Source: Beroe forskalii (lineage: Eukaryota; Ctenophora; Nuda; Beroida; Beroidae). Taken from it: DNA of 64,000 nucleotides. Shown here piece after piece: positions 30,431 to 64,000 of the stretch. The notes below the pieces were generated by a model, which was not told the origin of the DNA, made no database searches, and was given only the letters and a program-made list of their open reading frames with translations. The translations under genes were made by a program, and so were the position numbers. How positions within the stretch are numbered: the first letter of the stretch is position 1; every line of letters starts with the position of its first letter. Location of the stretch: assembly GCA_011033025.1 (NCBI GenBank), contig WFMF01000148.1:329194-393193 (forward strand), given 5' to 3'.

Positions 30431-30937
30431 CTCCTTATATTCAAAGTCATTAGTTTGACTATTGGTATTTGAAAGTTAATATGAATGGTACAACTCAATG
30501 AGTTATAATGACATCTTCAATAAGTAACCAGAACCAGCACTTGTTTGCTGAATTTGAAGTGTTGAAATGTTGACTTCTTCTTTTCATATGACTCAAGGGG
30601 CTGGAAGATCCAGTAAGAAGTGGAAGTTTCAAGATAATTCTGAGAATAGTTTTGATATGTCCTTCATTTTATTCCATTCTATTTTTGTCAGTAGGTGCAT
30701 CAAATTTTAGAAATTTATTGAATTACCAGCATACAAGTTTAAGTACACAGATCTTATGGACAAAGGAGATTATTTATGTGGTTTAAAAGAAACGATTACA
30801 TTGCATGTAAGAATGAGGCCCTCTGGTACTAAATTCAATGAAAACAAGAAACAGGGAATTCTGCTTTCTAGGTGGTCTACCCCTAGAAATATAAAGTTAA
30901 TTAGCAGTATCCACTGACTCCACTTACTAAGGAAGTA

Positions 30938-33868
30938 ATGAAACAAACTGTAGAAGAAGTCATTGTAAGCCTGGGTAACTTTGGCAATACTCAGTTGATA
31001 ACTACTTTGGTCTTCTCCCTGTATCAGTTCATTGCTTGTGTTGTGGCATTTTCTGTTTCTATCTTCCTAAAAGTTAGTCCTATTTTCCTGTTAACCACTT
31101 TGTATTTTTTATAGTCCAATATAGGCTATGCAATGTATAATTATTATAAAAGTAGCATGTTGCCTATTAATGTTGCTTTTCTGACTTGATCATTTTCAGG
31201 TTCCTGAATGGGATTGTGATTCCCAAAAATGTTCTGAGTTGACAATAAAGTCTGGTGGCAAGGAAATCTCAATATTCTGCCAACTTACACAGCAAGATTA
31301 CATGTAAGATGATCTGTATGCCCAGTAGCTACATTTTTGGTTCAACTTTTATAAAACCTGGAATCTCAGACTATTTGAACATTCTGTTCTTGCTGCATTT
31401 GAATCTTAACTTACTAGAAAGATCTTAAATTATTCAGAGAGTGAAAAATATTCCCTAGATGGCATGACCGGACGAACATAGCTACAGAGTATGGTGTGTA
31501 CTGTGACAATGCTTACCTTGCTGCACTGTCCATAACCTATTATTTTGTTGGGTATGCTATTGGTACCACTTTGCTTGGAGTATCTGCTGATAAGTAAGTC
31601 CTGGAACACTTCAGTTGACACATGTCAATTATATTTCATAGCTTTATAGCAAGGAATATGAACACATTGGTCTTAAGAAATGATTACAAATCACTTCTAT
31701 GAATATTGTAAACAGAATATTGTAATTTGCCAATTTTCAATGGTAAATGATCTTCAGGTATGGTAGAAAAGCTGTAGCAGTTCCAACCCTAGCACTATAC
31801 ACCCTTGTCACAGTATTGGTTTCCTCCTCTTCATCATACAACCAATTCCTCATTCTTCGAGGCATAAGTGGAGTTTTACATGGAGGCCTTCAAAATGTTA
31901 CACATGTTCTTCAAGCTGAGCTAATCCCTCCCAAGTAGTTTCTTTATTTTGCTTGATTTGAGGCATTTTCTGAATGCACAGAGAATAGTGAAATGTTTTG
32001 TTTATGTTTTGAGCTTATAGTCTTAACAAAAACTTTCATGATTTAAAATGGTAATCAATTAATCCTTTTCTCACAGGTATAGGAATACCTGTAACACAAT
32101 AAAAGAAGGAATGTTTGGTTTTGGCCTGACTATATCTGCACTTATGCTCTATTATATCAGATCATGGAGAACAGTTTTCACCATACTAGCAATACTTCTT
32201 TTCATTTGTACTGTTGTGGTTGGAAAGTTTTTACCTGAATCTCCATTCTTCTTTGCAGGAAAAGGTGTGTTAAAATTGCTATTTCGAACTGAATTTGATG
32301 AGACAGTTGCTATAATCATAAGAAATTGACTAAGTCAATCATAACAAGATGTTTCATTTCATGTAGTTAGACTATAAACCAAACTATCGTTGCAGGTGAG
32401 ATGACATTGGCTCTGGAATCCCTCAAAAAGATATCAGACATCAATAGAGTAAAACTGCCATCTGGTTTGGTAATTGCAAATAACACTCCTACTCCAACTG
32501 CCGAAAAGATGGAGTCTATTTCTGAGATTCTTTATGTTTCCTTCAAGTGAGTTGCATCATGATTTCAGAAAAAATGTGTCAGAAAGTGGAGTGATTTCTT
32601 ATTCTGTATAGGTAATGTTATTTCATCTAATGCTGTGTTTTTGCAGGACTAAGATGAGTGTTTTGGGGCTGTTTGAAGTGTTCTTTACCCACACACTCCT
32701 TCTTTACTGCCTGTCTTACCACGTGTCAGCTGTTCCTGGGGACGTGTTCGTTAACAGTGCTATGATGGGAATCTCATCTCTCCCTGCTTACTACTGGCTC
32801 TACAGGTGAATGTTTGAAAAGATCAATATTGAATTTGCTTTGTAATTGTACTTTGGTATACAGTATATCTAGCAAGGCTTACTCTCATTTGTTTGTTTTC
32901 TCCAGTATTTTCAACCTTACCCTCTAGGTCTGGAGACAAGTACGGTCGGAGGAAATGTCTCATATCATTCTACTGCCTGACCATTACGTGTCTCTTTATT
33001 GCTTGGTGTGACACCCAAGGTACACCCCTCATTGGCCCAATCACAGTGCAGCTGGTGTGTTTCGTAACAGCACGGTCCTGTATGTTAGCTGTTAGCAGTC
33101 TCATGTACCTCTACACCAGTGAAGTGTTTCCCTCATCGGCTAGATCAGGTCAATGTGTGGTTAATAATACAGCAAGCTGTGTCTGGTAATGTATATATTA
33201 GATTATGTGTGGTTGTTAATGTATACAGACTAATGAAAGAAACCCAAAGCTCCAAATTAGCATCTGAGTCATTTGTAGCTGGCTCTTTGAGGGTTTAGCG
33301 AGAATTGATGATGTGATGATGTGGTCTATAGTGATTAGTGATGGAAATACAACCTATTTTCAAATGTTATCTCACCCCTTTCTCCCATCAGGTCTAGTTG
33401 GGATATCCTCAATGATTGCCCGTGGAGGTGGTATTCTGTCTTCCTACGTTCTGATCCTGGATTCACACAATCCCTCCTTAGTCTATCTCATCTGCATCGT
33501 GTCGGGATCTATCGCTCTAGTAAGTGCGAACGTTAACTTGTTTTACTATAATACAATGAAAACATATAGTCGGGGGGCTGGCATTATATGTTGATTTTTT
33601 ATCATCCACAGTCCACACCCATCCTGGATTTTTAATGCTTTTGTCGGACTCAGGCATCTATAATTGGTGGTGTTCTGTAACCTACTATACTTGAATAAAC
33701 GGGAATACATGCACCTCACATTCGGTCACATTTCTTCTAACCCCACCATTTCCCCAGTGTCTCCTGACCCTCCTACCAGACACGACAGGCAGAAAACTAC
33801 CTGAAACCTTTGCGGAGTGTGATGAGTTGCTCAGCGGGAGGACTACTGTCGTTACCAGGAAGATTTAG
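30938..33868 (+). CDS. SLC22-type MFS transporter, left-arm copy, 502 aa
   Basis: Ten exons join in frame with GT/AG ends: 30938-31072, 31200-31303, 31459-31593, 31758-31934, 32077-32264, 32396-32546, 32647-32805, 32928-33148, 33392-33519, 33758-33868. The N-terminus (FGNTQLITTLVFSLYQF) is TM1, followed by a Cys-containing extracellular loop (CDSQKCSEL, CQLTQQDY). TEYGVYCDNAY-LAALSITYYFVGYAIG leads to motif A (GVSADKYGRKAV). LPESPFF marks the start of the large cytoplasmic loop, SGDKYGRRKCL is the second motif A, YTSEVFPSSARS comes next, and LPDTTGRKLPETFAE closes the protein. These are hallmarks of SLC22 organic ion transporters; about 12 TMs expected. Substrate unknown. It appears intact, unlike its mirror copy. 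Confidence 0.9.
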
Positions 33869-34404
33869 TGAAGAGAAAGGAAGATGATGTTTAACATTCC
33901 TTCCTGAATATCATGATTTAGTATTTAATTTAGGTATAATTATGTATTTTTCATTTTACTCTTGTTTGACAATCATTTATTTGTAGTTTAGTTTTTAGAT
34001 TTAGAATTCTGACGCTTTGACGTTCTATTACGATTATTGACATATTAGTTTTAGACAATTATTATATGCATTTCATACTATATTCTTACGATTATCTTGA
34101 ATGACGTACCTATTGAACTGAGGAATACTGCTAGATTTTGCTTACATTGCGATTATTAATTGACTACGCGATATTTATTGACTAGGTACGCGTTTTATTA
34201 TTCACTCGATCGATTTTATATTTTGTAGATGAATATGATTAATTGAATTTTAGATTAGTTCTTGCTACCTATGCTAGGATAACAGTGGATCTTTCATCTT
34301 TTCATTATTAGTCAATAGAATGTAATGACACAACTTTCTTCAGATTTTCTTTTTAAGATTGATACGTATCACATTTAATTTATTAATGCTTCACGATTCC
34401 GATT

Positions 34405-35282
34405 TTTTCCCTCCCCATTGGCCTTTTTGTGAATACAAAAAGGCAAATGAGAGGGTTAGCAGAGATCGTGTTTGGGAAAGTGAGAAATAGGATATGTGCA
34501 TAGCAGGTCCAGATTTGCAATACAACTACTGTAATTTCTGGAAAGTGCCCGGAAAGTCCGAGGGAGATATGTCCACAAAATTTGAGGGAGATGTCCACAA
34601 ATTTGAGGGAGATGTCCACATATTTGAGGGAGATTTCGTCAACAATGGTACCATCAGGTGGAGTCGCGTAGCAACCTTAATTGCGCGCGCAGTTGCGCGC
34701 AATTCACTCCGCAAGATCAGGATGGATGTACATATCGAACAGTTTTGTGCGCGGCGCTGCGGCTCAACATCATGCGTGGCGCGCTCATGTTAAGCTTTAG
34801 TTAGCCTATCAAATTTTAGCGAAAATTCAAGCGCCGAGTCAACACTTTACCAATGTTTGAAATTCTAGCAATTTTGAACAATTTATGGTGGAAAAACAAA
34901 TTACTGTATCATGAAATTGTATATCATGAAATTCGTAGGATGTTACCCTACCCACGCGCGCGGCGCAACGTTCCACATTTGGACGTCACTTTTGATAGCC
35001 ATCCAGTCAGAAGAAATAGACGGGCAACGTCCGTCGACATGAAATTGAATCATCAATGCTATAGTAATAGTTGCTTGCGTGAAAACCATGGCAAACTACG
35101 GAGTTTATGAAATAAATAACTTCGTGAAGTAATTCAATTGCGTTGTTAAAAGCTCATCAACGTGGATCGAAGCTGCACCCATGTCCCACATGCATTTAGA
35201 ATTGTGCGTTTCTATTAATATTTTCTTCAAGCTCGGGGGAGGGAAATTAAGCGCCCGCAAATGGGTAACGGGCGCAGTTCTT
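34405..35282. mobile_element. Left-arm-specific insertion (~880 bp) with short inverted ends
   Basis: The right arm reads straight through the site (near 55,270-55,290). The ends carry TTTCCCTCCCC and GGGGAGGGAAA (11-bp inverted repeat). Inside are a 3x TTTGAGGGAGATGTCCACA repeat (34,575-34,640) and GCGCGC patches. The right end, AAATTAAGCGCC...GGGCGCAGTTCTTG, recurs at 28,320-28,375. No coding capacity recognised. Confidence 0.65.
34568..34642. repeat. Short tandem repeat (GAGGGAGATGTCCACAAATTT)
   Basis: About three to four ~21-24-bp copies inside the 34,405-35,282 insertion. Confidence 0.8.
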
Positions 35283-35877
35283 GTTTTGTAAATTATTTAA
35301 TTGATATTTGATGTTTGAAGGTGCTTTGCAATTACATATCAGATATTTCAAATGCTTCCTTGTATTTTATTATCATAACTTTTTATATCAGACATTGCAA
35401 TGATAGAGAATTAGATGCTTAGTTATTAAGTTCATGTTGATTATAATAGAAACTTAGTTAGTATACACCTATTTAGTGTTTTATTGTCTTTTCCACCAAG
35501 AATAATGAGTGTTGTTTAACCCTATTGCAAACTTCCTACAAAAGTTTTATCGTGTACCAGCGAAAAGGCATTGCTTTCACATGTGATCTTGTTATTTTGC
35601 AACTTTTTGATATTATTCCACGCACTGATTCCGATCATCCTAACGCACTTCACCCGTCCTGAGGATGATTTTCAGTAAACGGTACAAGAACTCAGTCACC
35701 CCAGTCTTCTCAGAATGTGGTACTATGGTGGCTAACGCTAACGGTTCAAAGGTAACAAGCCATTATTCTCATAGAATAACTGTAAATGTTAGAGCTTAGA
35801 ATGATGATCTTCTCATTAAAGGCATTCTAATTAAAGGCAAAGGCTGCAGGTCATGTGGGCTGATAGGCTGAATGGAT

Positions 35878-36345
35878 GGCCTACCGACAAGTGCGCACAT
35901 AAGAATCTATTTCCCACGGTCTAACAGGGTGGCCTGTCAATGGGTGCTTTGTCATGCGAGGTCATGATGGGTTAGGTTACGTTCGGCTCACGTGATGCGG
36001 CTCATAGCTTCAGCATATCATATGAGAGGAACTGGAAGGGTAGCGATGAGCCGCGCGTCATGTGAGAGGAAGGGTAACGTCGCACCCATGCAACTAGGGA
36101 TATCTGAGATAGGCATGTCTACTGCTCAGTCTTCTTCAACCCTTCTGACCAGACCCTCTCTACCGGTGCGAAGCAGCATAACCACCTCCTGACCCCCATC
36201 TGCCAGAGAAGAAGACCTTCATCTCATTGAATGTGCGCACTTGTCGTTTCAGATGCAGTCAATCTACTGATTGGGCTACTCCCTAAATTTTCCCACGCTA
36301 CCCTGTCAATTATTGAGCTCCCATGTGCGCACTTGTCCGGCAGCC
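35878..36345. mobile_element. 468-bp MITE with 8-bp target duplication
   Basis: Flanked by GAATGGAT on both sides (35,870-35,877 and 36,346-36,353). The right arm has the site once (GATATCCATTC at about 54,690). Terminal inverted repeats of ~23 bp: GGCCTACCGACAAGTGCGCA and, inverted from the right, GGCTGCCGGACAAGTGCGCA. No transposase frame. The 8-bp duplication suits hAT-like, Merlin or Zisupton-type enzymes; the family is not decided. Confidence 0.92.
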
Positions 36346-36606
36346 GAATGGATATCATAGAGTACAAACTTTTCTAAAAATGTTTGAAGTTTTAGTTATA
36401 CTCAGCTTCTTTTTTGAAGATTAACCATGAAGGAAACGTGTTGCATATAACGTTTGGACATTAAGTACCGATGTCACATCTCACATTATGATCCCTTGCC
36501 TCAGGTACTGGTTCGGGATGCTAACAGTCTGCAACTCCTCCAAATGTGGGTGTGTTACGACACTGTTAGAGACATCGTGTGGTCCCCCGACTCTGCCTAC
36601 GTAGCC

Positions 36607-36730
36607 TCCGTCAGCGGCAACAAAGTGCAGTTGTGGTTCAGTTACCATTGCTACTGTCAGTGGCAACAAAGTGCAGTTGTTGTTCAGTTACCATTGCTAC
36701 TGTCAGTGGCAACAAAGTGCAGTTGATGAT
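36607..36730. repeat. ~48-bp tandem triplication at WRAP73 exon 2 end (left arm)
   Basis: Three copies of a unit holding GGCAACAAAGTGCAGTTG and GTTCAGTTACCATTGCTACT. Absent in the right arm, where the same exon end is followed by a normal GTATTG donor. Confidence 0.95.
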
Positions 36731-36829
36731 AGTTGACAGTTCCAACTTTAACGATTTGAAATGAATGAAATGTTTCTCTTTCAATCAGAAACTTCTCTAA
36801 TTTGCCTCTCCATCTATGACCCAAATGAC

Positions 36830-36897
36830 TAATCCCCTCCCTCAGTTGTGGTCGATGTGTGACTAATCCCCTCCCTCAGTTGTGGTCGATGTGTGAC
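36830..36897 (+). repeat. Duplicated splice acceptor and exon 3 start
   Basis: CCCCTCCCTCAG followed by TTGTGGTCGATGTGTGACT occurs twice, 34 bp apart. The right arm carries the same duplication (54,150-54,222), so it predates the inverted duplication. Confidence 0.9.
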
Positions 36898-37127
36898 TCA
36901 GCTTGGAGGTCGTGTATCTCAGAAGCTGAGGCGGGGGTTCAAAGTGTCACGTGGTCGCCTGATTCCAAACATTTGCTGGTCCTGCATGACTTCTCTCTGT
37001 TTATAACAGTGTGGGCGCTAGAGGTAGGTGTACTATAGACGGTACAATTAACAATATGTTGGATAAAGGGCTAGTTTTAACTTCTTTCGTTGCTGTCTTT
37101 AAGCTACCATAGTTTATTATTATCATT

Positions 37128-38262
37128 ACCACAGACAAAACCGCAAGCGGCTGTCATAGCAACCCCTTCACAGAGTCACAGGGGCGCCGTTTTTTAATTG
37201 TAAGAGGTTATTATGATCTAAACAAACGTTATTAAGCGTCAAACATAGAAATAATTGGTTTTAATCCTTGAAATAGTGATTTCCCTAATTTCTACAAAAC
37301 GTCCGCGTGAACTCACGTGCACTTCATTTCCATCGGATATTTCTTGTTCTATTCAAGTACCAAGTAAGTTAAAATGTTTTTTCAGTCACTATAGTATAGC
37401 ACAACAGCCCTGCACTTTTGGAACTGGGCCTGAAATTGGACTTAGCCAAATTTTCGACTTTTTCGCGCGGCTCAAATTTACGTTTTTGAGGGGCCACCAC
37501 ACCCTTCCCTTAAATCTGGACGACTTGAAACTTTTTACCCTTGATATTTGACTGAGAAAGAACATTAATACGTCTGGAAAAGATGGAGCAATGTTCGTGA
37601 GCTGAGATATAGATGCTCAAAGTCACCATATTTTTGCGTAGAAAGGATCCTCGATTTTGGAGGCCCCCACGACCTCATTTTTCACCAATCACCATGAAAC
37701 TTCTTTTTGTGGCTAAATCTCGAGGTCTAGATGCTACATAAGTCGGGAATTCAAGATGCGGTTGTAAACTTTGCAGATACAGTGCTTCAAAGTGGTCCAA
37801 AATTACGTTTTTCGCTAAAAATCGTGATTTCATCGATTTTGATGACGTCATAACAGCAAAAAAATCGATCCGCGAAACTTCCTACATAGCCTAAGCCACA
37901 ATTTCATCTTAGCTGAAAAAAATGCGTCCTCGATCATGTCTGTATCTTTTATGCTTTTTGAGTTTACCCCGTCACAAATTGGGTCCTAAAATTATCACGT
38001 CTCTGCGTACGTACGTATATATTCGTCCTGTGACATCGATACATTACTATATAGTCCTGGCAAGGTTACGTTCGAGATATCTCGAGATTTCGGTATACGC
38101 ATTCACTCGAGAGGGGTCAACTCCTACATAAAATTTGACGAGGAATCGTTTAAGATAGGTTTCGAAGCTCTCAGATGCTTCCTTCACTATTATCAAACGC
38201 AAGTTTGTTTTTTTTCTTTTTTCTTTTACTGTGAGGGGGTTGCCGTCCTTGCCAGGACGGAA
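37128..38262. mobile_element. Diverged member of the composite hairpin-ended family
   Basis: Sits in WRAP73 intron 3 of the left arm only; the right-arm intron is ~250 bp. It shares an ACAAAACCGCAAGCGG end, the CTACAAAACGTCCGCGTGAA block, the TTTTGATGACGTCAT block and a closing CCGTCCTTGCCAGGACGG palindrome with the 55,986 array, in the same order, but with many substitutions: an older or separate subfamily. Confidence 0.75.
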
Positions 38263-41200
38263 ATCATATATCATGTACATTATACAGTGAACGTTATCAC
38301 TACAGCGCTATCCAACTATCTAGGTATTTGTACAAGTTTGCACTGTATAAAACTGTACACAGTGTCAACTGTGCACTTGTATAGACATAATGTAAAACTT
38401 TTTGGTGCTGTAGGCAGTACCAGTGTGATGTGTTCAATGAGACTGTGACTGTTGACACGATGAAGCTTAAAAAGCTTCATTTTACGTGTCTGTCTCTGTT
38501 CGAACTCTCGTCTCTCTGTTCTGAGTCTCTGTCCGTATAATCCCCAAGTCTCTACCAGTCACCCCTCCCTCCCTTCCCCAGTTCGCTACTCAGATGTTCA
38601 TACAGAACCCCAAAGGCTCCCTCTTTGGATTCAGTGGAGATGGACGGTATCTCGCTGTCATAGAAAGAACGGACTGTAACGACTACGTGGCTATTCTTAA
38701 CACCCGGCTGTGGAAACTTACTAGTCATTTCAAACTACCTACCATCGATACTACTGGCTTCGAATGGGTGAGACAAGGAATAAACTTAGACATTAGGTTT
38801 AGAAACAAACATGAAGAGTTAATTTTCCTCTTTTATCCTCATCCAAGATTACTCTGTATCTTTGATTGTACACTAGAGTCTGCAAGATCACTGTACAATG
38901 TACAGTAGGTAGTCTCCTTGTATCTTGAATCTCTCTCCCCTAATCTTATACATTGTTAATTCCTGAATCCTATTTTCCCTCGGGGCCCCTCCATAATTGT
39001 TAATATCTCCCTTCCCTCAGGGCCCCTCCAATCTGGAACTGTGTATTTGGGACCACGCCTTCGAACATAGGATGTACATATTCTCCTTGGATGGAACCTG
39101 TGTCTTCTCTCACGAGGTAAGATGACAGGATACATCTTGTAATTCTAGAATATTTCATGAGAACATGAGACCGTTGAGGGCATTCTCATGTGATGTAATG
39201 TCTAACGACATCTGATTCTTATGAAGTTTTCTCGATCCTCTCTTCTTCTTATGGTTGTCTCCTGATTTGAATCTTGAATTCTTTAGTGCTCCCCTCTGTT
39301 CAGAATATTTCTCGTGATTGTTCAGGTTAGATCATTCATGCCTCAGATTTCTCGTGATTGCTCAGGTTTAAATCATCAACTGATGACTTGTTTGCTTCAG
39401 ATTAAGAAGCCAATCAGCATGGGGTTGCAGTGTGTCAAGTGGAGTCCGTGTGGACAGTATTTAGCGCTGGGGACTCATACACACAACCTCTACCTCGTTA
39501 ATAGGACCAACAGAAAGGTAAATATTCAAATTCATGAGGATGCAAATCACAATGACTTTCATAAACAACCATCTTACCCCTCTTTAAATTCTTTCTTACT
39601 CTCGCCCCCTCGCCCTTCTTACAAGTTACAATCTACCACGCTATGAGCTATCCTTAGAAACCGCCAGAATCCTGCCACTGAATAATATCTAAATATCAAA
39701 TTAATATCTTCCAATATCTCAGGTAGCGGGAGAGTTGCTGATTCCCCCTGACGTACCCGGGCAAGTAGTCCAGTACTACCGGGAACAGCACAATGTGGTG
39801 TCAGGGACCACAATTGCAGAAAAACTCATGTCACAGCCAGAGCACAAATTCGAGGTAATCATTGGTTGCGGAACATATCAACGAAATGATCAAATCACTT
39901 GAGTAGTAAATAATTCAGCTTACTGTGAACATAATAATCGTAAATTTGATTTAGGATTCAAGTTATATCCTTGCAAACCACTAAGTCCTATTTCTATAAT
40001 TTTGCCTGATTAACTGGACTGATTGACTCTCTTCAGGTTGTAGCAGATGATGCAGTGGACCTAAAGTACGTCGATATGGTTATTGAAAAGAAGACAGGCA
40101 ATAAGAAGGGAGGTAATGCCAAGGAGAAGCGACCTAAAAAGGTAAGCAGTGCTTCTCGCTGAGATTTAATTTAATATCAGCTCTATCTAGTCATCATTCG
40201 TCAAGGAAGGCGTGGTAGGCCGTAGAAAGTTAAAATCAGTGTGACATTTGGCAAATTTTCTTGTAATGTTTGAAAGGCGCGAAACAAATGTAATGGTAAT
40301 TATGGCGCAAACTGCGCGCGCGCCGCGCAATTCAATTAAACTGCAATTAAATTCAAGTTCAGAAAATCTTTTTTGCTGATTTTAGGCGGGATAAAACGTT
40401 TTTTGTTTTTCTTTTGAAAATTTCCGTTGAATCAGTGGCGCAAATGAATAATTTTGAAAGCTTATTCATTGACAGGCTCCAATCATTATTGGTTATTGCA
40501 GTCTTGCTTTCTTTCAGTACGGTATAACGAGTGTGAAGTGGTCTCATGACAGCTCCAGATTAGCAGTATTCGATGCCTCCATTCCTTCCAGTATCATTAT
40601 TTGGAATGTCTCAGAAAAAAGTGAGTGTAATCAGTGCTTGTCAGACTCTCTGAGCAGGGGTGCATTTGAAAGGGGTCAGATAACGATTGTCAACACAGTG
40701 CAGTGTTTACTTCAACCTACTGTATCGTTTTCGGTGTATTCTTGCCCCAGTTTTCATACCACATATGCTCCAATAAGTGTCCAATTGATTACATTTCCAG
40801 GCATTATTGCTGTAATGGAGTTTACGCACAACGTCAAGTCCTTCCTATGGCATCCGCAGCTCTTACGACTCATCGTAGCTTCTGGAGGTAAAAACCAGCA
40901 GCGTTCATACTTCATTTCTGCTGGTGTTTAACTGAGACCACATTCTTTGTCAAAACTCAGACCCAAGTCTAAATATTTCTGCAGGTCTCAAGTTGCGCCA
41001 GGCGAAATTTAATTCCCATATTGCTTGCTTGGTTAGCTGGCTTCTAAACTTATTTTAAAAGATGTGTTTATGTGAAGTTTATGTAAAGTATCAGCCCAAT
41101 TCTTTCGTACCCCTATTCCCTGGAGACAGCAGCATTGGAATGTGGGAGTTTGATGGCTGCTCAATCATCGAGCTTCCTGGAGAATGCGCCGTGAACGTAA

Positions 41201-41688: not shown

Positions 41689-41764
41689 TATAGCAGCGAA
41701 TAATATCCTTATTTGTTATTGTAATTCATGTGTCTTCTTACGTAAAAAGAATTAGGCGCACTCT

Positions 41765-44586: not shown

Positions 44587-44594
44587 ATGTAATA

Positions 44595-50669: not shown

Positions 50670-53600
50670 TCATTCAAAAAACCCAATACAAAAGTTGTCT
50701 TTATCCGCCAGGATGAGGGCATTTCCATCGTTAGCCCACGTCGTGTTCTGAACCTGCGAATATTATTCGACATTTGATCCTGATTTTAGCCCTGACTAAG
50801 GCACGTATTTAAGAGCAATCGAACCAAATTGGGTTTCAATAACATACATGCCACTTGTTGACTTTTAATCTATATGATTCACTGTTCATTATAACTGCAA
50901 ATAGGGGGGGGGGAGGGGGGAGGGGGGCAAATAACTATAAGTATTTTCTTACGTTCACGGCGCATTCTCCAGGAAGTTCAATGATTGAGCAGCCATCAAA
51001 CTCCCACATTCCAATGCTGCTGTCTCCAGGGAATAGGGGTGTGAAAGAATTGGGCTGTTACTTTACATGAACTTTATGTTTTAAAATAGGTTTAGAAGCC
51101 AGCTAACCAAGCAAGCAACATGGGAATTGAATTTCGCCTGGTGAAACTTAAAACCAGAGGAAATATTTAGACTTGGGACTGACTTTTAACATTTAACACC
51201 AGCAGAAATGCGCACACTGATTTTTACCTCCAGAAGCTACGATAAGTCGAAGGAGCTGGGGATGCCAGAGAAAGGACTTTACGTTGTGCGTAAACTCCAT
51301 TACAGCAATAATGCCTGGAAATGTAATCGATTGGACACTATAATTGAAGCATATGTGGTAAGAAACCTGGGGTAAGAATACACCAAAAACGATACATTAG
51401 GTTGAAGTAAACACTGCACTGTGTTGACAAACGTTATCTGACCCCCTTCGAATGTGCCCCTGCTCAGAGAGTCTGACAAGCACTGAGTACACTCACTTTT
51501 TTCCGAGACATTCCATATAATGATGCTGGAAGGAATGGAAGCATCGAATACTGCTAATCTGGAGCTGTCATGAGACCACTTCACACTCGTTATACCGTAC
51601 TGAAACAAAACAAGACTGCAATTACCAATAATGATTTGAAATAATTGTCAATAATAAGTATTCAGAATATGTTATTTGCGCCACTGATTTAACGGAAATT
51701 TTCAAAAGAAAAACAAAAACGTTTTATCCCGCCTAAAATCAGCAAAAAAAGATCTTCTGAACTTGAATTGCAGTTTAATTAAATAGCGCGCGCGGCGCGC
51801 GCACGGTTTGCGCCATGATTACCATTAGATTTGTTTCGCGCCTTTCAAACATCACAAGAAAATTTGCCAAATGTCACACTGATTTTAACTTTCTACGGCC
51901 TACCACGCCTTCCTTGACGAATGATGACTAGATAGAGCTGGTATTAAATTTAAGCTCAGCAGAAAGCTTACCTTTTTAGGTCGCTTCTCCTTGGCATTAC
52001 CTCCCTTCTTATTGCCTGTCTTCTTTTCAATAACCATATCGACGTACTTTAGGTCCACTGCATCATCGGCTACAACCTGAAGAGTCAATTATTCCAGTTA
52101 ATCTGACGAAATTATAGAAATAGGACTTAGTGGTTTGCAAGGATATTACTTGAATCTCAAATCAAATTTACGGTTGTTAATTTCACAGTAATAAGCAGAA
52201 TAATGAACTTCTCTAGCGATTTGATCATTACGGTGATACTTTTTGCAACCAATGATTACCTCGAATTTGTGCTCTGGCTGAGACATTAGTTTTTCTGCGA
52301 TTGTGGTCCCTGAGACCACATTGTGCTGTTCCCGGTAGTATTGGACTAATTGCCCGGGTACGTCAGGAGGAATGAGTAACTCTCCTGCTACCTGAGATAT
52401 TGGAAGATATTAATTTGATATTTAGATATTATTCAGTGGCAGGATTCTGGCGGTTTCTAAGGATAGCTCATAGCGTGGTAGATTGTAACTTGTAAGAAGG
52501 GTGAGGGGTGAGGGTTAGAAAGGATTTAAGGAGGGGTAAGATGGTTGTTTATGAAAGTCATTGTGATTTGCATCCCCATGAATTTGAATGTTAACCTTTC
52601 TGTTGGTCCTATTAACGAGATAGAGGTTGTGTGTATGAGTCCCCAGTGCTAAATACTGTCCACACGGACTCCACTTGACACACTGCAACCCCATGCTGAT
52701 TGGTTTCTTAATCTGAAGCAAACAAGTCATCAGTTGATGATTTAAACCTGAGCAATCACGAGAAATCTGAGGCATGAATGATCTAAACCTGAACAATCAC
52801 GAGAAATATTCTGAACAGAGGGGAGCACTAAAGAATTCAAGATTCAAATCAGGAGACAACCAAAAGAAGAAGAGAGGATCGAAAAAACTTCATAGGAATC
52901 AGATGTCGTTAGACATTACATCACATGAGAATGCCCTCAACGGTCTCATGTTCTCATGAAATATTAAAATAAAATAAACAAAATAAATAATACAATTTAT
53001 TAATGATTATTAATGATTACAATATAAATTTTTCATATCGTCCGACCTTCAATGATTAATGCATTGATAAAGTTAAATTGCATAATTGCAGATACCCATA
53101 ACGTCTTAACTGAATATAATGTGATGCAATGATAGCCGAAAAGAAGGGGACGAAATTTAGTGACTGGGGGGAGCAATAGCTCGAGGAGCTAGTAAGCACT
53201 CACACCAGTTATCTAGAATTACAAGATGTATCCTGTATCTAATCTCGTGAGAGAATACGCATGTTCCATCCAAGGAAAAGATGTACATCCTGTGTTCGAA
53301 GGCGTGGTCCCAAATACACAGCTCCAAATTGGAGGGTCCCTGGGGGGAGATAGGATTTAGGAATTAACTATGTACAATATTAGGGAAGAGAGATTAAAGA
53401 GAGGGGCCCTGAGGGAAGATAGATTCAAGATACAAGATTAGAAGATTACTGTACAGTGTACATTGTGCAGTGATCTTGTAGACTCTTATGTACAATCAAA
53501 GATACAAAGTAATCTTGGATGAGGCTAAAAGAGGAACATTAACTTTTCACGTTTGTTTAATTTCTAAGTTTATTCCCTTTCTCACCCATTCGAAGCCAGT

Positions 53601-54878
53601 AGTATCGATGGTAGGTAGCTTAAAATGACTTGTAAGTTTCCACAGCCGGGTGTTAAGAATAGCCACATAGTCGTTACAGTCCGTTCTTTCTATGACAGCA
53701 AGATACCGTCCATCTCCACTGAAACCGAAGAGGGAGCCTTTGGGGTTCTGTATGAACATCTGTGTGGCGAACTGGGGAAGGGGGGCAGGGGTGAGACTTG
53801 AGGAACGAGACAGACATAATTGAGAATTAGAACAGAGATAATAGAGGCATAGAGGTAAGACAATATGACATCAATCTGAGAAATCGCAACAATAAGACCC
53901 CTGCAACAGCATACAGTTTTATATTGTTCAGCGCACACTTGTACAAATACCTCCACAAAATGTGCACGGTGCAGTGTATTGTGCGATATGCAATGTATTG
54001 AACATCTCAACAGCATACTAAAGTACTAACGTACCTCTAGCGCCCACACTGTGATAAAGAGAGAGAAGTCGTGTAGGACCAGCAGATGTTTAGAATCAGG
54101 AGACCATGTGACACTTTGTACTCCCGCCTCAGCTTCTGAGATACACGACCTCCACGCTGAGTCACACATCGACCACAACTGAGGGAAAGAATTAGTCACA
54201 CATCGACCACAATTGAGGGGGTTGGGTCATATTATATAGAGTGGAAAATGAAAGAGTTTCTGGTCGAAAGAGAATATTCTAATTCACTTCAAATCGTTCG
54301 ATAACATCTTTTAGGGTTGGAACTATCAACAAACAATTATCAACTATTGGAATTAACCCGTACTTTGCTACAAGTAACAGACAACCAGTTACGTAGTTGA
54401 ACAATAACCAATACCTGCACTTTGTTGCCACTGACGGAGGCTACGTAGGCAGAGTCAGGGGACCACACAATATCTCTTACAGTGTCGTAACACACCCACA
54501 TTTGGAGGAGCTGGAGACTGTTAGCATCCCGGACCAGTACCTGAGGGGAGGGGGGTAATAATGTGAGATGTGACATCGGTACTTAATTTCCAAACTTTAA
54601 ATGCAACACGTTTCCTTCACGGTTAACTTTCAAAAAGTAGCTGAAGATAACTAGAACTTCGAGCATTTTTATAAAAACTCTATGATATCCATTCAGCCAA
54701 TCAGCCCACATGACCTGAATGCCTTTAAGGAGAAAATCAACATTCTAAGCTCTAACATTTACAGTTATTCTTTGAAATAATGGCGTGTTACCTTTGATCC
54801 ATTAGCGTTAGCCACCATAGTGCCACATTCTGAGAAGACTGGGGTGACTGAGTTCTTGTACCGTTTACTGAAAATCAT
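50670..54878 (-). pseudogene. WRAP73: WRAP73 homologue, right-arm copy; exon 5 donor lost
   Basis: The same 12-exon gene as the left arm, on the minus strand, starting at 54,878 (MIFSKRYKNSVTPVF) and ending GFFE-stop at 50,670. Exon 2 (54,415-54,540) is clean with a normal GTATTG donor. The WD blades and the basic insert GNKKGGNAKEKRPKK are preserved. Defect seen: exon 5 ends CACGAG followed by ATTAGATACAGG (53,240-53,250), where the left arm has GTAAGATGACAGG, so the donor GT is gone. Unless another donor is used, exon 5 cannot be spliced normally. It may therefore be a recent pseudogene, or a gene with an altered transcript. It is convergent with the left-arm copy across the minisatellites. 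Confidence 0.8.
50904..50927 (+). repeat. G-tract with quadruplex potential
   Basis: A near-continuous run of G broken by two single A bases, inside a WRAP73 intron. The mirrored left-arm intron (about 41,220-41,350) lacks it. Confidence 0.85.
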
Positions 54879-55813
54879 CCTCAAACAAGATAAGGGTAAA
54901 ATCAGAAGTGAGTGAAAATCATCCAAAGGAGGTGTGAAGTTATTTAGGATAATTCCTTTTTTCTGGTACACGATAAAACTGTTTGAGGGAATTTGCAATA
55001 GAATGAAATAAACACTCACTCCATTATTCTTGGTGGAAAAGACAATCAAACACAAAAAAGGTGTATAATGTGATAATGTATAAACTGAGTATCTACTATA
55101 ATCAACATGAACTAATAATCAGCATGAACTAATAAATAACTAAGCATCTAATTCTTTATCATTGCAATATCTGATATAAAAAGTAATGATAATCAAATAC
55201 AAGGAAGCATTTCAAATATCTGATACGTAATTGCAAAGCAACTTAAACCATCAAATATCAATTAAATTATTTACAAAAAAACGGAAATCGTGACGAATTA
55301 ATATATTAAAAGTGATACGTATCAATCTTAAAAAGAAAATATAAAGAGAGTTGTGGCATTACATTCTATTGACTAATAATGAAAAGATGAAAGATCCACT
55401 GATATCCTAGCATAGGCAGCAAGAACTAATCTAAAATTCAATTAATCATATTCATCTACAAAATATAAATTCGATCGAGTGAATAATAAAACGAGTACCT
55501 AGTCAATAAATAATCGCGTAGTCAATAAATAATCGCAATGTAAGCAAATCTAGCAGTATTCCTCCTTTCAATACGTCATTCAAGATTATCGTAAGAATAT
55601 AGTATGAAATGCATATAATAATTGTCTAAAACTAATATATCAATAATCGTAATAGAACGTCAAGGCGTCAGAATTTTAAATCTAAAAACTAAACTACAAA
55701 GAAATGATTGTCAAACAAGAGTAAAATGAAAAATGCATAATTATACCTAAATTAAATACTAAATCATGATATTCAGGAAGGAATGATAAACACATCATCT
55801 TCCTTTCTCTTCA
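54879..55813. other. Intergenic region between WRAP73 and transporter (right arm)
   Basis: Mirror of 33,869-34,404 plus 35,283-35,664. No gene seen; it represents the empty site for the 34,405-35,282 insertion. Confidence 0.6.
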
Positions 55814-55986
55814 CTAAATCTTCCTGGTAACTACAGTAGCCCTCCCACTGAGCAACTCATCACATTCCGCAAACGTTTCAGGTAGTTTTCTGCCTGTAGT
55901 GTCTGGTAGGAGGGTCAGGAGGGACTGGGGAAATGGTGGGGTAAGAAGAAATGTTAGGTGAAGGTTTTCCAAGTATTATAGTAGGT

Positions 55987-56134
55987 TATCACCACCAAAA
56001 CCGTTGGACGGTTGGTCTAGTAACCCCCCGCTGGTTTGGATGTGATCAGCCCATTTTGTCTCTTTTCAGGTTCCGTTGTCACATCCAAACCCGCGGGGGG
56101 TTACTAGACCAACCGTCCAACGGTTTTGGTGGTG
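55987..56134. repeat. Large hairpin, copy 1 of array
   Basis: Arms ACCACCAAAACCGTTGGACG... and inverse, ~55 bp each, around a loop with CAGCCCATTTTGTCTCTTTT. Confidence 0.95.
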
Positions 56135-56164
56135 ATATCTTGACAGATGTATGTAGTTTAAACC

Positions 56165-56425
56165 CATGTTACTCGGACCCCGTTATTCGGACCCCCGTTA
56201 TTCGGACCCCGTTATTCGGACCCCCTTTATTCGGACCCCCGTTATTCGGATCCCCCGTTATTCGGACCCCGTTATTCGGACCCCGTTATTCGGACTCCCG
56301 TCCTTCGGGCCCCGTTATGCGGACCCCTGTTATTCGGACCCCCGTTATTCGGACCCCGTCATTCGGACCCCCGTCATTCGGACCCCCGTTATTCAGACCC
56401 CCGTTATTCAGACCCCCGTTAGTCG
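56165..56425. repeat. 16-bp minisatellite (CCGTTATTCGGACCCC)
   Basis: About 16 copies; the inverse of the 24,490-24,690 array. Shortened to three to four copies at 58,202-58,255 and 59,575-59,620. Confidence 0.95.
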
Positions 56426-57552
56426 TATTTAAACTCATTTCAACATAATCAAGTCGAAAATCCCGTGTAAACATAAATTTCTTCAAATCCCTAATTTCTA
56501 CAAAACGTCCGTGTGTACTCACGTGCTGAAATATGGCAACTAGATCTAATTTCACGTGCATTAGTCGTATTTAAACTCATTTCAACGTAATCAAGTCGAA
56601 AATCCCGTGTAAATATCAATTTCTTTAAATCCCTAATTTCTACAAAACGTCCGCGTCAACTCACGTGCTCCACTAGTTCATCGTATATTTCCCATCCCTA
56701 TTCACTGCAAGACATGGAGAAACCATTATCAGTAGACCATCGTATCACAGAATAGGATTACAGTACAATTTTTTCGTCATAAACGTAATTTCAATCAATT
56801 TGCAGTTCAATTTTAGAAGCCTCCACGACAACAATCTTCGACCGATCGCCCTGAAACTCGTTTTATAGCTAAATCTTAAGGTCTTAAAAGCAGCATATCA
56901 AAGTAAAACATAATCCGATGAAAACTATTTGAGTTAGAGATGTCCAAAGTAGCGCAAAATAGCGTTCTATCACAAAATACGCTATTTTAGTGGTTTTACG
57001 CGATTTTGATGACGTCATCACAGCACCCAAATAGGCTCAAACCAACTTCCCATATAGCCTATAAGACAATTCCACCTTAGTACAACATACTTTGACCGGT
57101 CTCATCTCAAGATAAGTTGCAGTTCTTGACACCTCACTCATTTAACTTTGTCCTATAATTTGGAAATCGATTTTTCACCGTACCTTAGAAAATCGCGTAT
57201 ATCTCGATGAAAAATCGAGATAGCCCAATAATCCGTATGATTTTCTGAAAGCTCTTTAAATTTGCTAAAAAATTGTTCCGAAAAATCAGACCGCTATCTC
57301 CTTTCCTTCTTGGTGAAAAATGCGCTCGAAATTAGCCTATTTTCGCTAAAAACGAAACAAAATTTCGCTAAGTTGATGACGTCATAGTGACGTGAAAATG
57401 ACGTCACCAGAACTTCTCTTATAGCCTATAACATTTTCCCATCTTAGATCAACAAAACCTGACCTCGATCATGGCTCTACCATTTCCCGTTCTTGAGATC
57501 TCGGCTTTCCAAATTTGCTCCCAATTATCATGATATTAATCTTATATATTAC

Positions 57553-57678
57553 ACCACCAAAACCGTTGGACGGTTGGTCTAGTAACCCCCCGCTGGTTTG
57601 GATGTGATCAGCCCATTTTGTCTCTTTTCAGGTTCCGTTGTCACATCCAAACCCGCGGGGGGTTACTAGACCAACAAA
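57553..57678. repeat. Large hairpin, copy 2 of array (right arm truncated)
   Basis: As copy 1, but the right arm stops after ACTAGACCAAC and is followed by AAATCCAACAGT, losing ~20 bp. Confidence 0.9.
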
Positions 57679-58892
57679 TCCAACAGTATGTAGTTTGATC
57701 CCATGTTGCCCAAAGGCAGTTTCGACCCACGTAACTTGCCCTCACGTAGTCCGAACCCTCGTTACTAGCCCACACGCAAGTCTAACCCACATAAATCACC
57801 CTTAGAAGTCCAAAACTAAGTTATTCTAACTTGAAATTACTAGAATTGATATATGTCTTAATTTCTACAAAACGTCCGTGTGTACTCACGTGCTTAAATA
57901 TAGCAACCAGATCTAATTTCACGTGCATAAGTCGTATTTAAACTCATTTCAACGTAACCAAGTCGAAAATCCCGTGTAAATATCAATTTCTTCAAATCCC
58001 CTAATTTCTACAAAACGTCCGTGTGTACTCACGTGCTAAAATATGGCAACCAGATCTAATTTCATGTGCATTAGTCGTATTTAAACCCATTTCAACATAA
58101 TCAAGTCGAAAATCCTGCGTAAATATCAATTTCTTCAAATCCCCTAATTTCTACAAAACGTCCGCGTGAACTCACGTGCTTCACTAGTCCATCGTATATT
58201 TCCCCGTTATTCGGACCCCCGTTATTCGGACCCCCGTTATTCTGACCCACATAATCCGATGAAAACTCTATGAGTTGGAGATGTAAAAGTAGCGCAAAAT
58301 AGCGTTCTATCACAAAATACGCTATTTTAGTGGTTTTACGCGATTTTGATGACGTCATCACAGCACCCAAATAGGCTCAAACCAACTTCCCATATAGCCT
58401 ATAAGACAATTCCGCCTTAGTACAACCTACTTTGACCGGTCTCATCTCAAGATAAGCTGATGTTCTTGACATATCACTCGTTTAAGTTTTTCTCCTAAAA
58501 TTTTGAAATTGATTTTTCATCGTACCTTAGAAAATCGTGTATATCTCGATGAAAAATCGAGATAGCCCAATGATCCGTATGATTTTCTGAAAGCTCTTTA
58601 AATTTCCAACCAACGATTTTTCAACATTTTTGAGCTATCTCCATTCCTTCTTGGTGAAAAATGCGCATAAAGATGGCCTATTCTTGCTAAAAAAGCAATA
58701 AAATTTCGCTAAGTTGATGACGTCATAGTGACGTGAAAATGACGTCACCAGAACTTCTTTTATAGCCTATAACATTTTCCCATCTTAGATCAACAAAACG
58801 TGACCTCGATCATGGCTCTACAATTTCCCGTTCTTGACATCTCGGCTTTCCAAATTTGCTCCCAATTATCATGATACATCTTCTTATTATAC

Positions 58893-59038
58893 TACACCAC
58901 CAAAACCGTTGGACGGTTGGTCTAGTAACCCCCCGCTGGTTTGGATGTGATCAGCCCATTTGGTCTCTTTTCAGGTTCCGTTGTCACATCCAAACCCGCG
59001 GGGGGTTACTAGACCAACCGTCCAACGGTTTTGGTGGT
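58893..59038. repeat. Large hairpin, copy 3 of array
   Basis: Full-length arms, near-identical to copy 1. Confidence 0.95.
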
Positions 59039-60284
59039 GATATCTTGACATATGTATGTAGTTTGAACCCATGTTACTTGCCCAAAGGCAGTTTGGACCC
59101 ACGTAACTTGCCCTCACGTAGTCCGAGCCCTCGTTACTAGCCCACACGCAAGTCTAACCCACATAAATCACCCTGAGGAAGTCCAAAACTAAGTTATTCT
59201 AACTTGGAATTACTAGAATTGATATATGTCTTAATTTCTAAAAAACGTCAGTGTGTACTCACGTGCTGAAATATAGCAACCTGATCTAATTTCACGTGCA
59301 TTAGTCGTATTTGAACTCATATCAACGTAACCAAGTCGAAAATCCCGTGTAAATATCAATTTCTTCAAATCCCCTAATTTCTACAAAACGTCCGTGTGTA
59401 CTCACGTGCTAAAATATGGCAACCAGATCTAATTTCATGTGCATTAGTCGTATTTAAACTCATTTCAACATAATCAAGTCGAAAATCCTGCGTAAATATC
59501 AATTTCTTCCGTCCCTAATTTCTACAAAACGTCCGCGTGAACTCACGTGCTTCACTAGTCCATCGTATATTTCCCCGTTATTCGGACCCCCGTTATTCGG
59601 ACTCCCGTTATTCGGACCCACATAATCCGATGAAAACTCTATGAGTTGGAGATGTAAAAGTAGCGCAAAATAGCGTTCTATCACAAAATACGCTATTTTA
59701 GTGGTTTTACGCGATTTTGATGACGTCATCACAGCACCCAAATTAGCTCAAACCAACTTCCCATATAGCCTATAAGACAATTCCGCCTTAGTACAACATA
59801 CTTTGACCGGTCTCATTTCAAGATAAGCTGCAGTTCTTGACATATCACTCATTTAAGTTTTGTCCTATAATTTGGAAATCGATTTTTCCACCGTACCTTA
59901 GAAAATCGCGTATATCTCGATGAAAAATCGAGATAGCCCAATGATCCGTATGATTTTCTGAAAGCTCTTTAAATTTCCAACCAACGATTTTTCAAAATTT
60001 TTGAGCTATCTCCATTCCTTCTTGGTGAAAAAAAAAAAAAAAATGCGCTCGAAAATGACCTATTTTCGCTAAAAAAGCAATAAAATGACGCTAAGTTGAT
60101 GACGTCATAGTGACGTGATAATGACGTCACCAGAACTTCTCTTATAGCCTATAACACTTTCCCATCTTAGATCAACAAAACTTGACCTCGATCATGGCTC
60201 TACCATTTCCCGTTCTCGAGATCTCAGCGTTTCAAATTTGCTCCCAATTATCATGATATATATTATTAATCTTATATATTAACA

Positions 60285-60541
60285 CCCTGTGACACTCAAA
60301 TCTCTAACTTATACCCCTGGCCAGTTTCTTTTTTACCGCGGGAGGTTACCGCCCTGGCCAGGGCGGGAATCACCCTGTGACACTCAAATCTCTAACTTAT
60401 ACCCCTGGCCAGTTTTCTTTTTACCGCGGGGGGTTACCGCCCTGGCCAGGGCGGGAATACTATCACCCTGTGACACTCAAATCTCTAACTTATACCCCTG
60501 GCCTTTACCGCGGGGGGTTACCGCCCTGGCCAGAGCGGGAA
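60285..60541. repeat. ~90-bp tandem repeat x3 ending in GGCC palindrome
   Basis: Each copy: CACCCTGTGACACTCAAATC, CTAACTTATACCCCTGGCC, TTTACCGCGGG, then CCGCCCTGGCCAGGGCGGGA. A single inverse copy is at 23,773-23,860. Confidence 0.95.
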
Positions 60542-61922
60542 CAGAACACCAGTAATTAGATACCTGAGTGACGAGTTTGACATGATCATTTAAAAAAGCC
60601 AGGATTGGTGAGGATGACAGAAAATCAATACATTATGTACATTGTACAGCACAAGTTATCGCACTTACTAGAGCGATAGATCCAGACACGATGCAGATGA
60701 GATAGACTAAGGAGGGATTGTGTGAATCCAGGATCAGGACATAGGAAGACAGAATACCACCACCACGGGCAATCATTGAGGATATCCCAACTAGACCTGA
60801 TGAAGGGAAAGGTTTGAGATCTGAAAATGAATTAAATAGGTTGTATTTCCATCATCATAGGCCATGATAAATGATAATGACTCTGGCTTAACCGAATATC
60901 ATCACATCTCGGTAAACCCTCAAATAAGCCAACTACAACCGAGTCATATGCCAACTGGAAGCTTTGGATTTCTTTCATTAGCCTGTATTCCACTACTGCA
61001 TACATTAATAACGTCACACGATCTGCTGTATAATTAACCACACACTAACCTGATTTACAACAATCACACACTTACCTGATCTAGCCGATGAGGGAAACAC
61101 TTCACTGGTGTAGAGGTACATGAGACTACTAACAGCTAACATACACGACCTTGCTGTTACGAAACACACGAGCTGTACTGTGATTGGACCAATGAGGGGT
61201 GTGCCTTGGGTGTCACACCAAGCAACGAAGAGACAGGTTATGGTCAGGCAGTAGAAGGATATGAGACATTTCCTCCGACCATACTTGTCTCCAGACCTAG
61301 AAGATTGGGCTGAAAATACTTGAGAAAACAATAAAATGAGAGTGAGTCTTGCTAGATATACATACAAAGAAAAGTACAATTACAAAGCAAATTCAATATT
61401 GATCTTTTCAAGCATTCACCTGTAGAGCCAGTAGTAAGCCGGAAGAGAGGAGATTCCCATCATAGCACTGTTAACAAACACGTCCCCAGGAACAGCTGAC
61501 ACGTGGTAAGACAGGCAGTAGAGAAGAAGGGTGTTGGTAAAGAACACTTCAAACAGCCCCAAAACACTCATCTTAGTCCTGCAAAAACATAGTATTAAAT
61601 GAGGAACATTATGACGAAGAAGAAATCCAGCCAATATCTAACACACTCATTGTGAAATAATGATGCAACTCACTTGAAGGAAACATAAAGAATCTCAGAA
61701 ATAGACTCCATTTTTTCGGCAGTTGGAGTAGGAGTGTTATTTGCAATTACCAAACCAGATGGCAGTTTTACTCTATTGATGTCTGATATCTTTTTGAGGG
61801 ATTCCAGAGCCAATGTCATCTCACCTGGAATGATAATTTGGTAGATAAACTTACTACATGATTATGAAAAATATATTGTAATGATTGATTAATACAATTT
61901 CACATGATAAATAAGGTGGTTT

Positions 61923-62067
61923 CATCGTTCCGCGTCGATCAAATGGATTGATCAAATGAAAAACGCGCACAATACACTTTGATGAAGACATCCGCGCAAA
62001 AAAGCAAGTGCGTGCGATGGTGTGCATTTTTCATTTGATCAGTTCATTTGATCGATGCGTAACGATG
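61923..62067. repeat. Hairpin element with ~48-bp arms in transporter intron
   Basis: CATCGTTCCGCGTCGATCAA ... pairs with ... GATCGATGCGTAACGATG. Absent from the equivalent left-arm intron (32,265-32,395). Shares the GATCAAATG core with the 12,093 element. Confidence 0.85.
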
Positions 62068-63396
62068 CAGGTGCCTTACAACTGTTTTGTCAATTTCAGT
62101 TCCAAATAACGATTCAAACACACCTTTGCCTGCATAGAAGAATGGAGATTCAGGTAAAAACTTTCCAACCACGAGAGTACAAATAACAAGAAGTATTGCT
62201 AGTATGGTGAACACAGTTCTCCAAGATGTGATATAATAGAGCATAAGGGCAGATATAGTCAGGCCAAAACCAAACATTCCTTCTTTTATTGTGTTACAGG
62301 TATTCCTATACCTGTGAGAAAAGGATTAATTGATTGCATATTAAATTGCGAAAGTTTTTGAAAGACTATAAGCTCAAATCATTAGCAAAATATTTGACTA
62401 TCCTTTATGCATTCAGAAAATGCTTCAAATCAAGCAAGATGAAGTAACTACTTGGGAGGGATTAGCTCAGCTTGAAGAACATGTGTAACATTTTGAAGGC
62501 CTCCATGTAAAACTCCACTTATGCCTCGAAGAATGAGGAATTGGTTGTATGAAGAAGAGGAGGAAACCAATACTGTCACAAGGGTGTATAGGGCTAAGGT
62601 TGGAACTGCTACAGCTTTTCTACCATACCTGAAGATCATTTACCATTGAAAAATTGCAAATTACAATCTTTTGTTAACAATATTCATAGAATTGATGTGA
62701 AATCAGTTCTTAATACCAATATGTTCATATTCCTTGTAAAATATAATTGACATGTGTCAACTGCAGTGTTCCAGGACTTACTTATCAGCAGATACTCCAA
62801 GCAAAGTGGTGCCAATAGCATACCCAACAAAGTAATAGGTTATGGATAGTGCAGCAAGGTAAGCATTGTCACAGTACACACCATACTCTGAAGCTATGTT
62901 TGTCCGGTCATGCCATCTAGGGAATATTTTTCACTCTCTGAATAATTTAAGATCTTTCTAGTAAGTTAAGATTCAAATGCAGCAAGGAAGGAATGTTCAA
63001 ATAGTCTGAGATTCCAGATTTTATAAATGTTGGACCAAATAAATATGTGGTAACTGGGCATACAGATCAGCTTACATGTAATCTTGCTGTGTAAGTTGGC
63101 AGAATATTGAGATTCCCTTGCCACCAGACTTTATTGTCAACTCAGAACATTTTTGGGAATCACAATCCCACTCAGGAACCTGAAAATGATCAAGTCAGAA
63201 AAGCAACATTAGTAGGCAACATACTACTTTTATCATGATAATCATACAATGCATAGCCTATATTGAACAATAAAAACATACAAAGTGGTTAACAGGAAAA
63301 TAGGACTAACTTTTAGGAAGATAGAAACAGAAAATGCCACAACACAAGCAATGAACTGATACAAGGAGAAGACCAAAGTAGTTATCAACTGAGTAT

Positions 63397-63766
63397 ATAA
63401 TAATAATGTAAAGATTTTGCCATAAAGCAACTCAATTGGTCAGAAAATTCTTTCATCACACTTTATCATTTTAGCATGTACCCTAAACAAGGTACTCAAA
63501 ATATTTAACTATAAGTATTGTTCATCAAAGTTGTTAAAAAAAACCATATATACAAAGATCCATATGCATAACAGTCTGCCCTTCAAAACTTGACAGTATG
63601 TTGATGGCGTACTGTCATTAACTCTCTCACACAGTCTTCTCAACACTGTTTACAATTCCACTTCTGATGAAATGTCGCTTGTTAGGCTCATCAGCCTTCT
63701 TCCTCTTCAACTCTGCAACAAGAGTCCTGTGTGCAAGCCTGTGTGTATTGCAAGTCCTGTGTGTAT
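63397..63766. mobile_element. ~370-bp insertion in exon 1 of the right-arm transporter
   Basis: The left arm reads GAGTAT-TGCCAAAG straight through (inverse of 30,970-31,000). Here AT-rich sequence follows GAGTAT, and the insertion ends in GTGTGTAT before TGCC; TAT (possibly GTAT) flanks both ends as a short target duplication. It contains a doubled AAGxCTGTGTGTATTGC unit near its right end. Family not recognised. Confidence 0.8.
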
Positions 63767-63770
63767 TGCC

Positions 63771-63810
63771 AAAGTTACCCAAAGTTACCCAAAGTTACCC
63801 AAAGTTACCC
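63771..63810. repeat. AAAGTTACCC x4
   Basis: Perfect 10-bp tandem repeat inside the former exon 1; the left arm has a single unit. Confidence 0.97.
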
Positions 63811-64000
63811 AGGCTTACAATGACTTCTTCTACAGTTTGTTTCATTACTTCCTTAGTAAGTGGAGTCAGTGGATATTGCTAATTAATAAATAATCTCCTT
63901 TGTCCATAAGATCTGTGTACTAAAACTTGAATTGTATGTATTGTAATTCAATTAATTTCTATAATTCGATGCAATAATTTGATGCAAATACATCAGTATT

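Follow-up and report, generated by a model that had tools for sequence, protein, structure and literature searches.

In a stretch of 64,000 nucleotides from the ctenophore Beroe forskalii (GenBank assembly GCA_011033025.1, contig WFMF01000148.1, positions 329,194 to 393,193 of the forward strand; here called the window), a block of two genes, an SLC22-type transporter and a WRAP73-like WD-repeat gene, is present twice in mirrored order. To judge from the sequence, the two blocks are probably (we put this at roughly 0.78) diverged parental copies of one locus that were joined by assembly, and not the arms of a real giant palindrome. Misjoined haplotypes are favoured because the join is error-textured, because the constraint on the genes is allele-like, and because a direct duplication of similar divergence lies next door. 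An earlier sequence-only reading of the window had left two options, namely a palindromic duplication of some age and a head-to-head joining of two haplotypes. The second alternative is preferred here, with its geometry changed: both genes are directed toward the centre in both arms, and the arms therefore meet tail to tail.

The window was compared with itself and the matching segments were then chained colinearly. This self-comparison, a check that had been recommended in the form of a dot-plot, showed a strong inverted duplication. A chain of 14 of the 30 matching segments pairs 30696-42930 on the forward strand with 63973-45980 on the reverse strand, ie inverted and colinear. Both genes with their introns, a 21-bp minisatellite and the flanks are common to the two arms and mirrored, as the sequence-only reading had described. 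The mirrored region it placed at 30690-64000 is present but starts at about 30696, and its extent of more than 30 kb is right as a total span and wrong as an arm length (12.2 and 18.0 kb). The right arm is the longer of the two because it holds the larger insertions. Between chained segments the arms show 10 size differences of more than 100 bp, in agreement with the at least seven discrete insertions claimed earlier. The many substitutions reported with them were also found: the segments were merged into 12 blocks and realigned, which gave 8004 identical columns among 8779 (91.2%), and the 775 differing sites comprised 395 transitions and 380 transversions, with 138 gap events in addition. 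When 30000-44000 was compared with 20 Markov-resampled right arms no match exceeded 33.7 bits, and the best real block scored 3909 bits, so chance is excluded for the inverted match.

Homology between the arms persists at 63973, 27 bases before the end of the window, where it is cut by the edge, and the outer breakpoint is therefore not visible in the window. At the inner edge (42930/45980) homology ends abruptly, with 89% complementarity across the last 90 bases and nothing aligning beyond. The parts of the spacer on either side of a retrotransposon fragment (42931-43480 and 45390-45979) showed no inverted homology to each other, with an alignment score of 25 compared to a maximum of 30 in 200 shuffles. 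There is no run of N anywhere in the window; the arms are connected instead by a stretch that looks like poorly corrected (unpolished) long-read sequence.

The exon models are predictions, based on open frames and on splice sites aligned between the arms (Table 1). The best solved relative of the transporter is organic cation/carnitine transporter 2 (E 2.6e-33), and its left copy matches Pfam MFS_1 (3.7e-28). The second gene matches the 'WD repeat WRAP73-like protein' 9qzc at residues 3-443 (E 1.9e-55). Some irregularities were seen. The reading frame of the right transporter is closed in exon 1 by a stop within a 10-bp tandem repeat of approximately 4 copies (63769-63811), which adjoins the insertion in that exon. 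Exon 2 of the left WRAP73 copy has no canonical donor directly downstream and runs into a 46-bp tandem repeat (36610-36725), and the exon 5 donor of the right copy (53238-53243) has AT in place of GT.

Both copies of each gene have stayed under constraint. Over the 445 codons of WRAP73 the arms differ by 66 synonymous and 2 nonsynonymous changes, giving a synonymous divergence (dS) of 0.271 and a ratio of nonsynonymous to synonymous divergence (dN/dS) of 0.007 (bootstrap 0-0.019). The 502 codons of SLC22, with the right-arm transporter taken without its exon 1 insertion, differ by 48 synonymous and 11 nonsynonymous changes (dS 0.144, dN/dS 0.068, bootstrap 0.032-0.121). Had one WRAP73 copy been unconstrained throughout, approximately 115 added nonsynonymous changes would be expected, as a rough figure, and by these counts no relaxed constraint was detected in either copy. 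A redundant gene copy normally relaxes. Near-complete constraint on both copies is the pattern of alleles, or of copies from separate lineages.

At noncoding aligned sites lying before the minisatellite the arms differ at 484 of 4915 (9.8%). Fourfold sites are more diverged than this, at 31/256 in SLC22 and 36/192 in WRAP73 (67/448 together, Fisher p 0.001), for which we have no explanation. Within the paired WRAP73 genes themselves (35665-41440 and 54878-50670) the fourfold sites likewise exceed the aligned introns (208/2306), and this too is unexplained. In PMC8270832, fourfold-site diversity is given as about 20% in Balanus improvisus, and neutral diversity as 16% in Caenorhabditis brenneri and 8% in Ciona savignyi. 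The fourfold and silent divergence of the arms is thus high for alleles, yet inside the published extremes of hyperdiverse animals. Divergence is uneven along the arms, ranging from 0 to 27 differences per 100-site window (variance 35.5, compared to 8.9 expected), and a 250-site scan gave extremes of 3 and 55, compared to 6 and 48 in 2000 permutations. When gap-adjacent sites were removed the unevenness became smaller but persisted (variance ratio 3.3); the low extreme became ordinary (5 compared to 5) and the high extreme was still beyond the 2000 permutations (51 compared to 43). The divergence of exon fourfold sites was compared with that of the flanking 150 bases as a test for exchange tracts, and gave no support for them in SLC22 (Spearman 0.27, p 0.44, 10 exons) or in WRAP73 (Spearman 0.35, p 0.26, 12 exons). 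The differences in the outer arms are balanced between the two sides, with short gaps 72 to 70 and neighbour-copying mismatches 139 to 168 in the 7 blocks (of 12) that remained once the inner blocks, the minisatellite and the short blocks had been set aside. Since the differences in these outer blocks are symmetric, the divergence is genuine and the arms are good sequence.

The join is of another texture. Homopolymer texture was taken as the number of adjacent identical bases over expectation, and was determined in 128 windows of 500 bp. The median was 1.07, and 18 windows reached at least 1.40. All but one of these 18 fall in three stretches, at 1-1500 (3 of 3 windows), 13.5-20.5 kb (10 of 14) and 45.5-47.5 kb (4 of 4); the remaining window, 56001-56500, covers a C-rich minisatellite. 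At a finer scale, 45400-47400 was divided into 10 windows of 200 bp, and 8 of these lie above the maximum of 195 clean windows taken from 20.6-45.2 and 49.4-63.8 kb. From 47.4 to 49.4 kb the texture is inside the clean range, and cleaner islands also occur within the stretch 13500-20500. The errors are one-sided as well. Compared to the left arm, 45980-46377 has 21 short deletions to 7 (p 0.013) and 35 neighbour-copying mismatches to 7 (p 1.5e-5). Compared to the spacer retrotransposon, 2-866 has 101 short deletions to 9 and 55 neighbour-copying mismatches to 1. A clean pair of retrotransposon copies, used as control, was balanced (short deletions 1 to 1, neighbour-copying mismatches 10 to 17). 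These features make it probable that 1-1500, 13500-20500 and 45400-47400 are long-read sequence that was poorly corrected. An effect of inverted duplications on nanopore reads (PMC7229812) was considered for the bridge and set aside, as matching texture is found both at the start of the window and in the direct copy (13.5-20.5 kb). It is also disfavoured by the right arm, which is clean from 49.4 kb outward except for the C-rich minisatellite.

A second duplication, on which the sequence-only reading was silent, lies beside the first. Here 12070-19392 and 21558-29830 are paired directly and colinearly in 12 segments. Over 7 of the 12 segments, short deletions number 227 in the first copy and 30 in its partner (p 1e-38), and neighbour-copying mismatches 168 and 63. 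In the 7 least-gapped of 35 windows the copies differ at 59 of 647 sites (9.1%), close to the noncoding 9.8% of the arms, and in two cleaner islands 34 of 330 sites differ, evenly on both sides. We accordingly set aside the idea that the first copy is no more than its partner read with errors. The duplication carries exons of a DnaJ/zuotin-like gene, putatively DNAJC21, with a zuotin-domain match below the cut-off.

A scheme that would produce this arrangement is as follows. The window would be a scaffold in which clean stretches from a strongly heterozygous animal are connected by poorly corrected sequence, and the arms would be two haplotypes, or homeologues, of one SLC22 transporter and WRAP73 locus. 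Because of their approximately 10% divergence and many insertions the haplotypes would have been assembled separately, and then linked tail to tail via the noisy bridge at about 45.4-47.4 kb. By the same process, the adjacent block would have come to be present twice in direct order, with its noisy copy (12.07-19.39 kb) before the cleaner one (21.56-29.83 kb). We infer each of three things here: the allelic status of the arms, the making of the scaffold, and a join at the bridge that is wrong or unproven. A single haplotype divergence explains both duplications, which otherwise require two events of similar age and opposite orientation. The interleaving of two haplotypes in a single scaffold is the simplest account of adjacent direct and inverted duplications that have similar divergence and error texture in the first copy or at the join.

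Several observations weigh against misjoined haplotypes. The abrupt inner edge looks like a duplication breakpoint, and is less well explained by a simple join of haplotypes than by a real breakpoint, unless there is a structural difference between the haplotypes at that point. The noisy bridge may derive from reads that truly span the join. The silent divergence of WRAP73 (dS 0.27) lies at the top of the allelic range, and one odd splice site in each WRAP73 copy is awkward for an essential gene, whichever reading is taken. The 9.1% for the direct copies is drawn from windows chosen post hoc for few gaps, some of them coding, and the homology of that duplication is patchy, with none before 12070 in the chain. 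A real inverted segmental duplication, ie the two-gene block copied in reverse beside itself with a 3-kb spacer, and then diverging by approximately 10% and gaining insertions while its genes were kept, has to be weighed, and we regard it as unlikely. Inverted colinear arms on one sequence, as such an event requires, were found; the inner edge is abrupt, the outer arms are clean with symmetric differences, each arm has discrete insertions, and the patchy divergence could be due to arm-to-arm gene conversion, although the low extreme is ordinary once gap-adjacent sites are removed. Neither WRAP73 copy shows the relaxation to be expected of it, however, the join sits in error-textured sequence, and the similarly diverged direct duplication of the neighbouring block would be a second coincidence.

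The arms could also be a real chromosomal palindrome of homologues, in which former allelic or hybrid SLC22-WRAP73 copies, approximately 10% diverged, lie tail to tail under near-complete constraint, as claimed for some asexual animals, ameiotic rotifers among them. The gene order g1A g2A - g2B g1B with allele-like constraint and divergence is what is seen here, for two genes only, and precedents have been reported in the Adineta vaga 2013 assembly and in Meloidogyne. We nevertheless consider this very improbable. The sequence at the join is of poor quality, erroneous scaffolding makes artificial palindromes (PMC7953838), none was found in Adineta ricciae (PMC5916493) and another A. vaga assembly has only one (PMC7749112). 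The least credible source is a fold-back read or amplification artefact, in which a single molecule is read on both strands. It would give the mirrored layout, but its arms should be identical except for random errors, and here 775 of 8779 aligned sites differ, symmetrically in the outer blocks, with coding constraint and large insertions between the arms. The sequence-only reading had already rejected a simple fold-back, and the symmetric divergence of the outer arms and the constraint on both genes uphold it in this.

The coordinates of all features are given in Table 1. The spacer retrotransposon fragment has related copies at 5.4-10.4 kb and at 2-866, as found by self-comparison. One repeat measures about 1.4-1.6 kb, is self-complementary at one end and contains tandem repeats of 15 bp and 143 bp. 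It occurs once at 23772-25373 and in tandem copies in the right arm (55985-60541), and the left arm has a partial relative of it that has diverged (37039-38321). Outside the duplications, an open frame of 672 codons (stop to stop) on the reverse strand at 1594-3612 contains an STPR domain (Pfam PF21107, E 4.2e-6), and a self-complementary minisatellite with an 11-bp unit at 5001-5437 could form a long hairpin. Within the window there was no match to Rfam at gathering scores, and nothing was found by ARAGORN.

Table 1. Features of the window, with positions counted from its first base.
Feature	Position	Strand	Basis or remarks
Error-textured stretch at window start	1..1500		homopolymer excess, one-sided errors
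Direct duplication, first copy	12070..19392	+	chain; error-textured with cleaner islands
Direct duplication, second copy	21558..29830	+	chain; cleaner
Left arm of inverted duplication	30696..42930	+	12.2 kb; colinear chain, realignment
Left-arm-only insertion, 119 bp, upstream of transporter	30778..30896		chain, alignment
SLC22-type transporter, left copy	30938..33868	+	predicted 10 exons, 502 codons; exon 8 donor GTCAAT
Left-arm-only insertion, 872 bp	34409..35280		chain, alignment
WRAP73-like WD-repeat gene, left copy	35665..41440	+	predicted 12 exons, 445 codons
Left-arm-only insertion, 465 bp	35878..36342		inverted-repeat ends and flanking 11-bp near-repeat (by eye)
Left-arm 1283-bp segment (65 bp in right arm)	37039..38321		partly a distant relative of the repeat at 23.8 kb
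21-bp minisatellite, left arm	41759..42285		
Spacer without inverted homology	42931..45979		alignment of spacer flanks
Non-long-terminal-repeat (non-LTR) retrotransposon fragment in spacer	43474..45392	+	endonuclease open reading frame (Pfam above cut-off); second open reading frame, weak PHD-finger match (below cut-off)
Error-textured bridge at join of arms	45400..47400		homopolymer excess, one-sided errors
Right arm of inverted duplication	45980..63973	-	18.0 kb; colinear chain, realignment; homologous to within 27 bases of the window end
Right-arm-only sequence	46378..49216		inverted-repeat ends 46388-46442 and 49149-49203; partly error-textured
21-bp minisatellite, right arm	49754..50363		
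WRAP73-like WD-repeat gene, right copy	50670..54878	-	predicted 12 exons
Right-arm-only insertion, 246 bp	52966..53211		chain, alignment
SLC22-type transporter, right copy	55814..63845	-	predicted 10 exons; exon 8 donor GTAAGT
Right-arm-only tandem copies of the repeat at ~24 kb	55955..60540		self-comparison, chain
Right-arm-only insertion in transporter exon 1, ~370 bp	63394..63762		limits by eye

Taken at face value, the window would imply that two adjacent blocks have been duplicated, one of them as a large palindrome. If it holds misjoined haplotypes, it illustrates how the two can be told apart by sequence alone, the distinguishing marks being symmetric versus one-sided errors, the homopolymer texture of the join, constraint on both copies, and a similarly diverged pair next door in the opposite orientation. 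Palindromes reported from other highly heterozygous assemblies can be checked in this way too.

The closest known counterparts are the false heterotype duplications described in PMC9516828 and PMC2864568, in which both haplotypes of a divergent region stand in one scaffold as apparent paralogues, often close together. Here also there are two colinear copies, their divergence is like that of alleles, and both are constrained. The signs of false duplication named in PMC9516828 are half depth, gaps between the copies, discordant links and single-copy k-mers. The present case is unlike these duplications in that one pair is inverted and one direct, the divergence is approximately 10%, and the link is error-textured with no gap of N; the word 'inverted' has 0 occurrences in the main text of either paper. 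Palindromes of homologous blocks have been counted in asexual animals, with 23 on re-analysis of the Adineta vaga 2013 assembly (PMC5916493), or 19 according to PMC7953838, and with 1 in Meloidogyne incognita and 3 in M. arenaria (PMC5465968). These resemble the present arrangement in having colinear gene copies reversed on one scaffold with allele-like divergence, and differ from it in that only two genes are visible here and the join lies in error-textured sequence. The human Y-chromosome palindromes, which undergo arm-to-arm gene conversion, similarly have inverted arms carrying genes, but their arms are more than 99.9% alike (PMC3723533), compared to 91% for the arms in B. forskalii.

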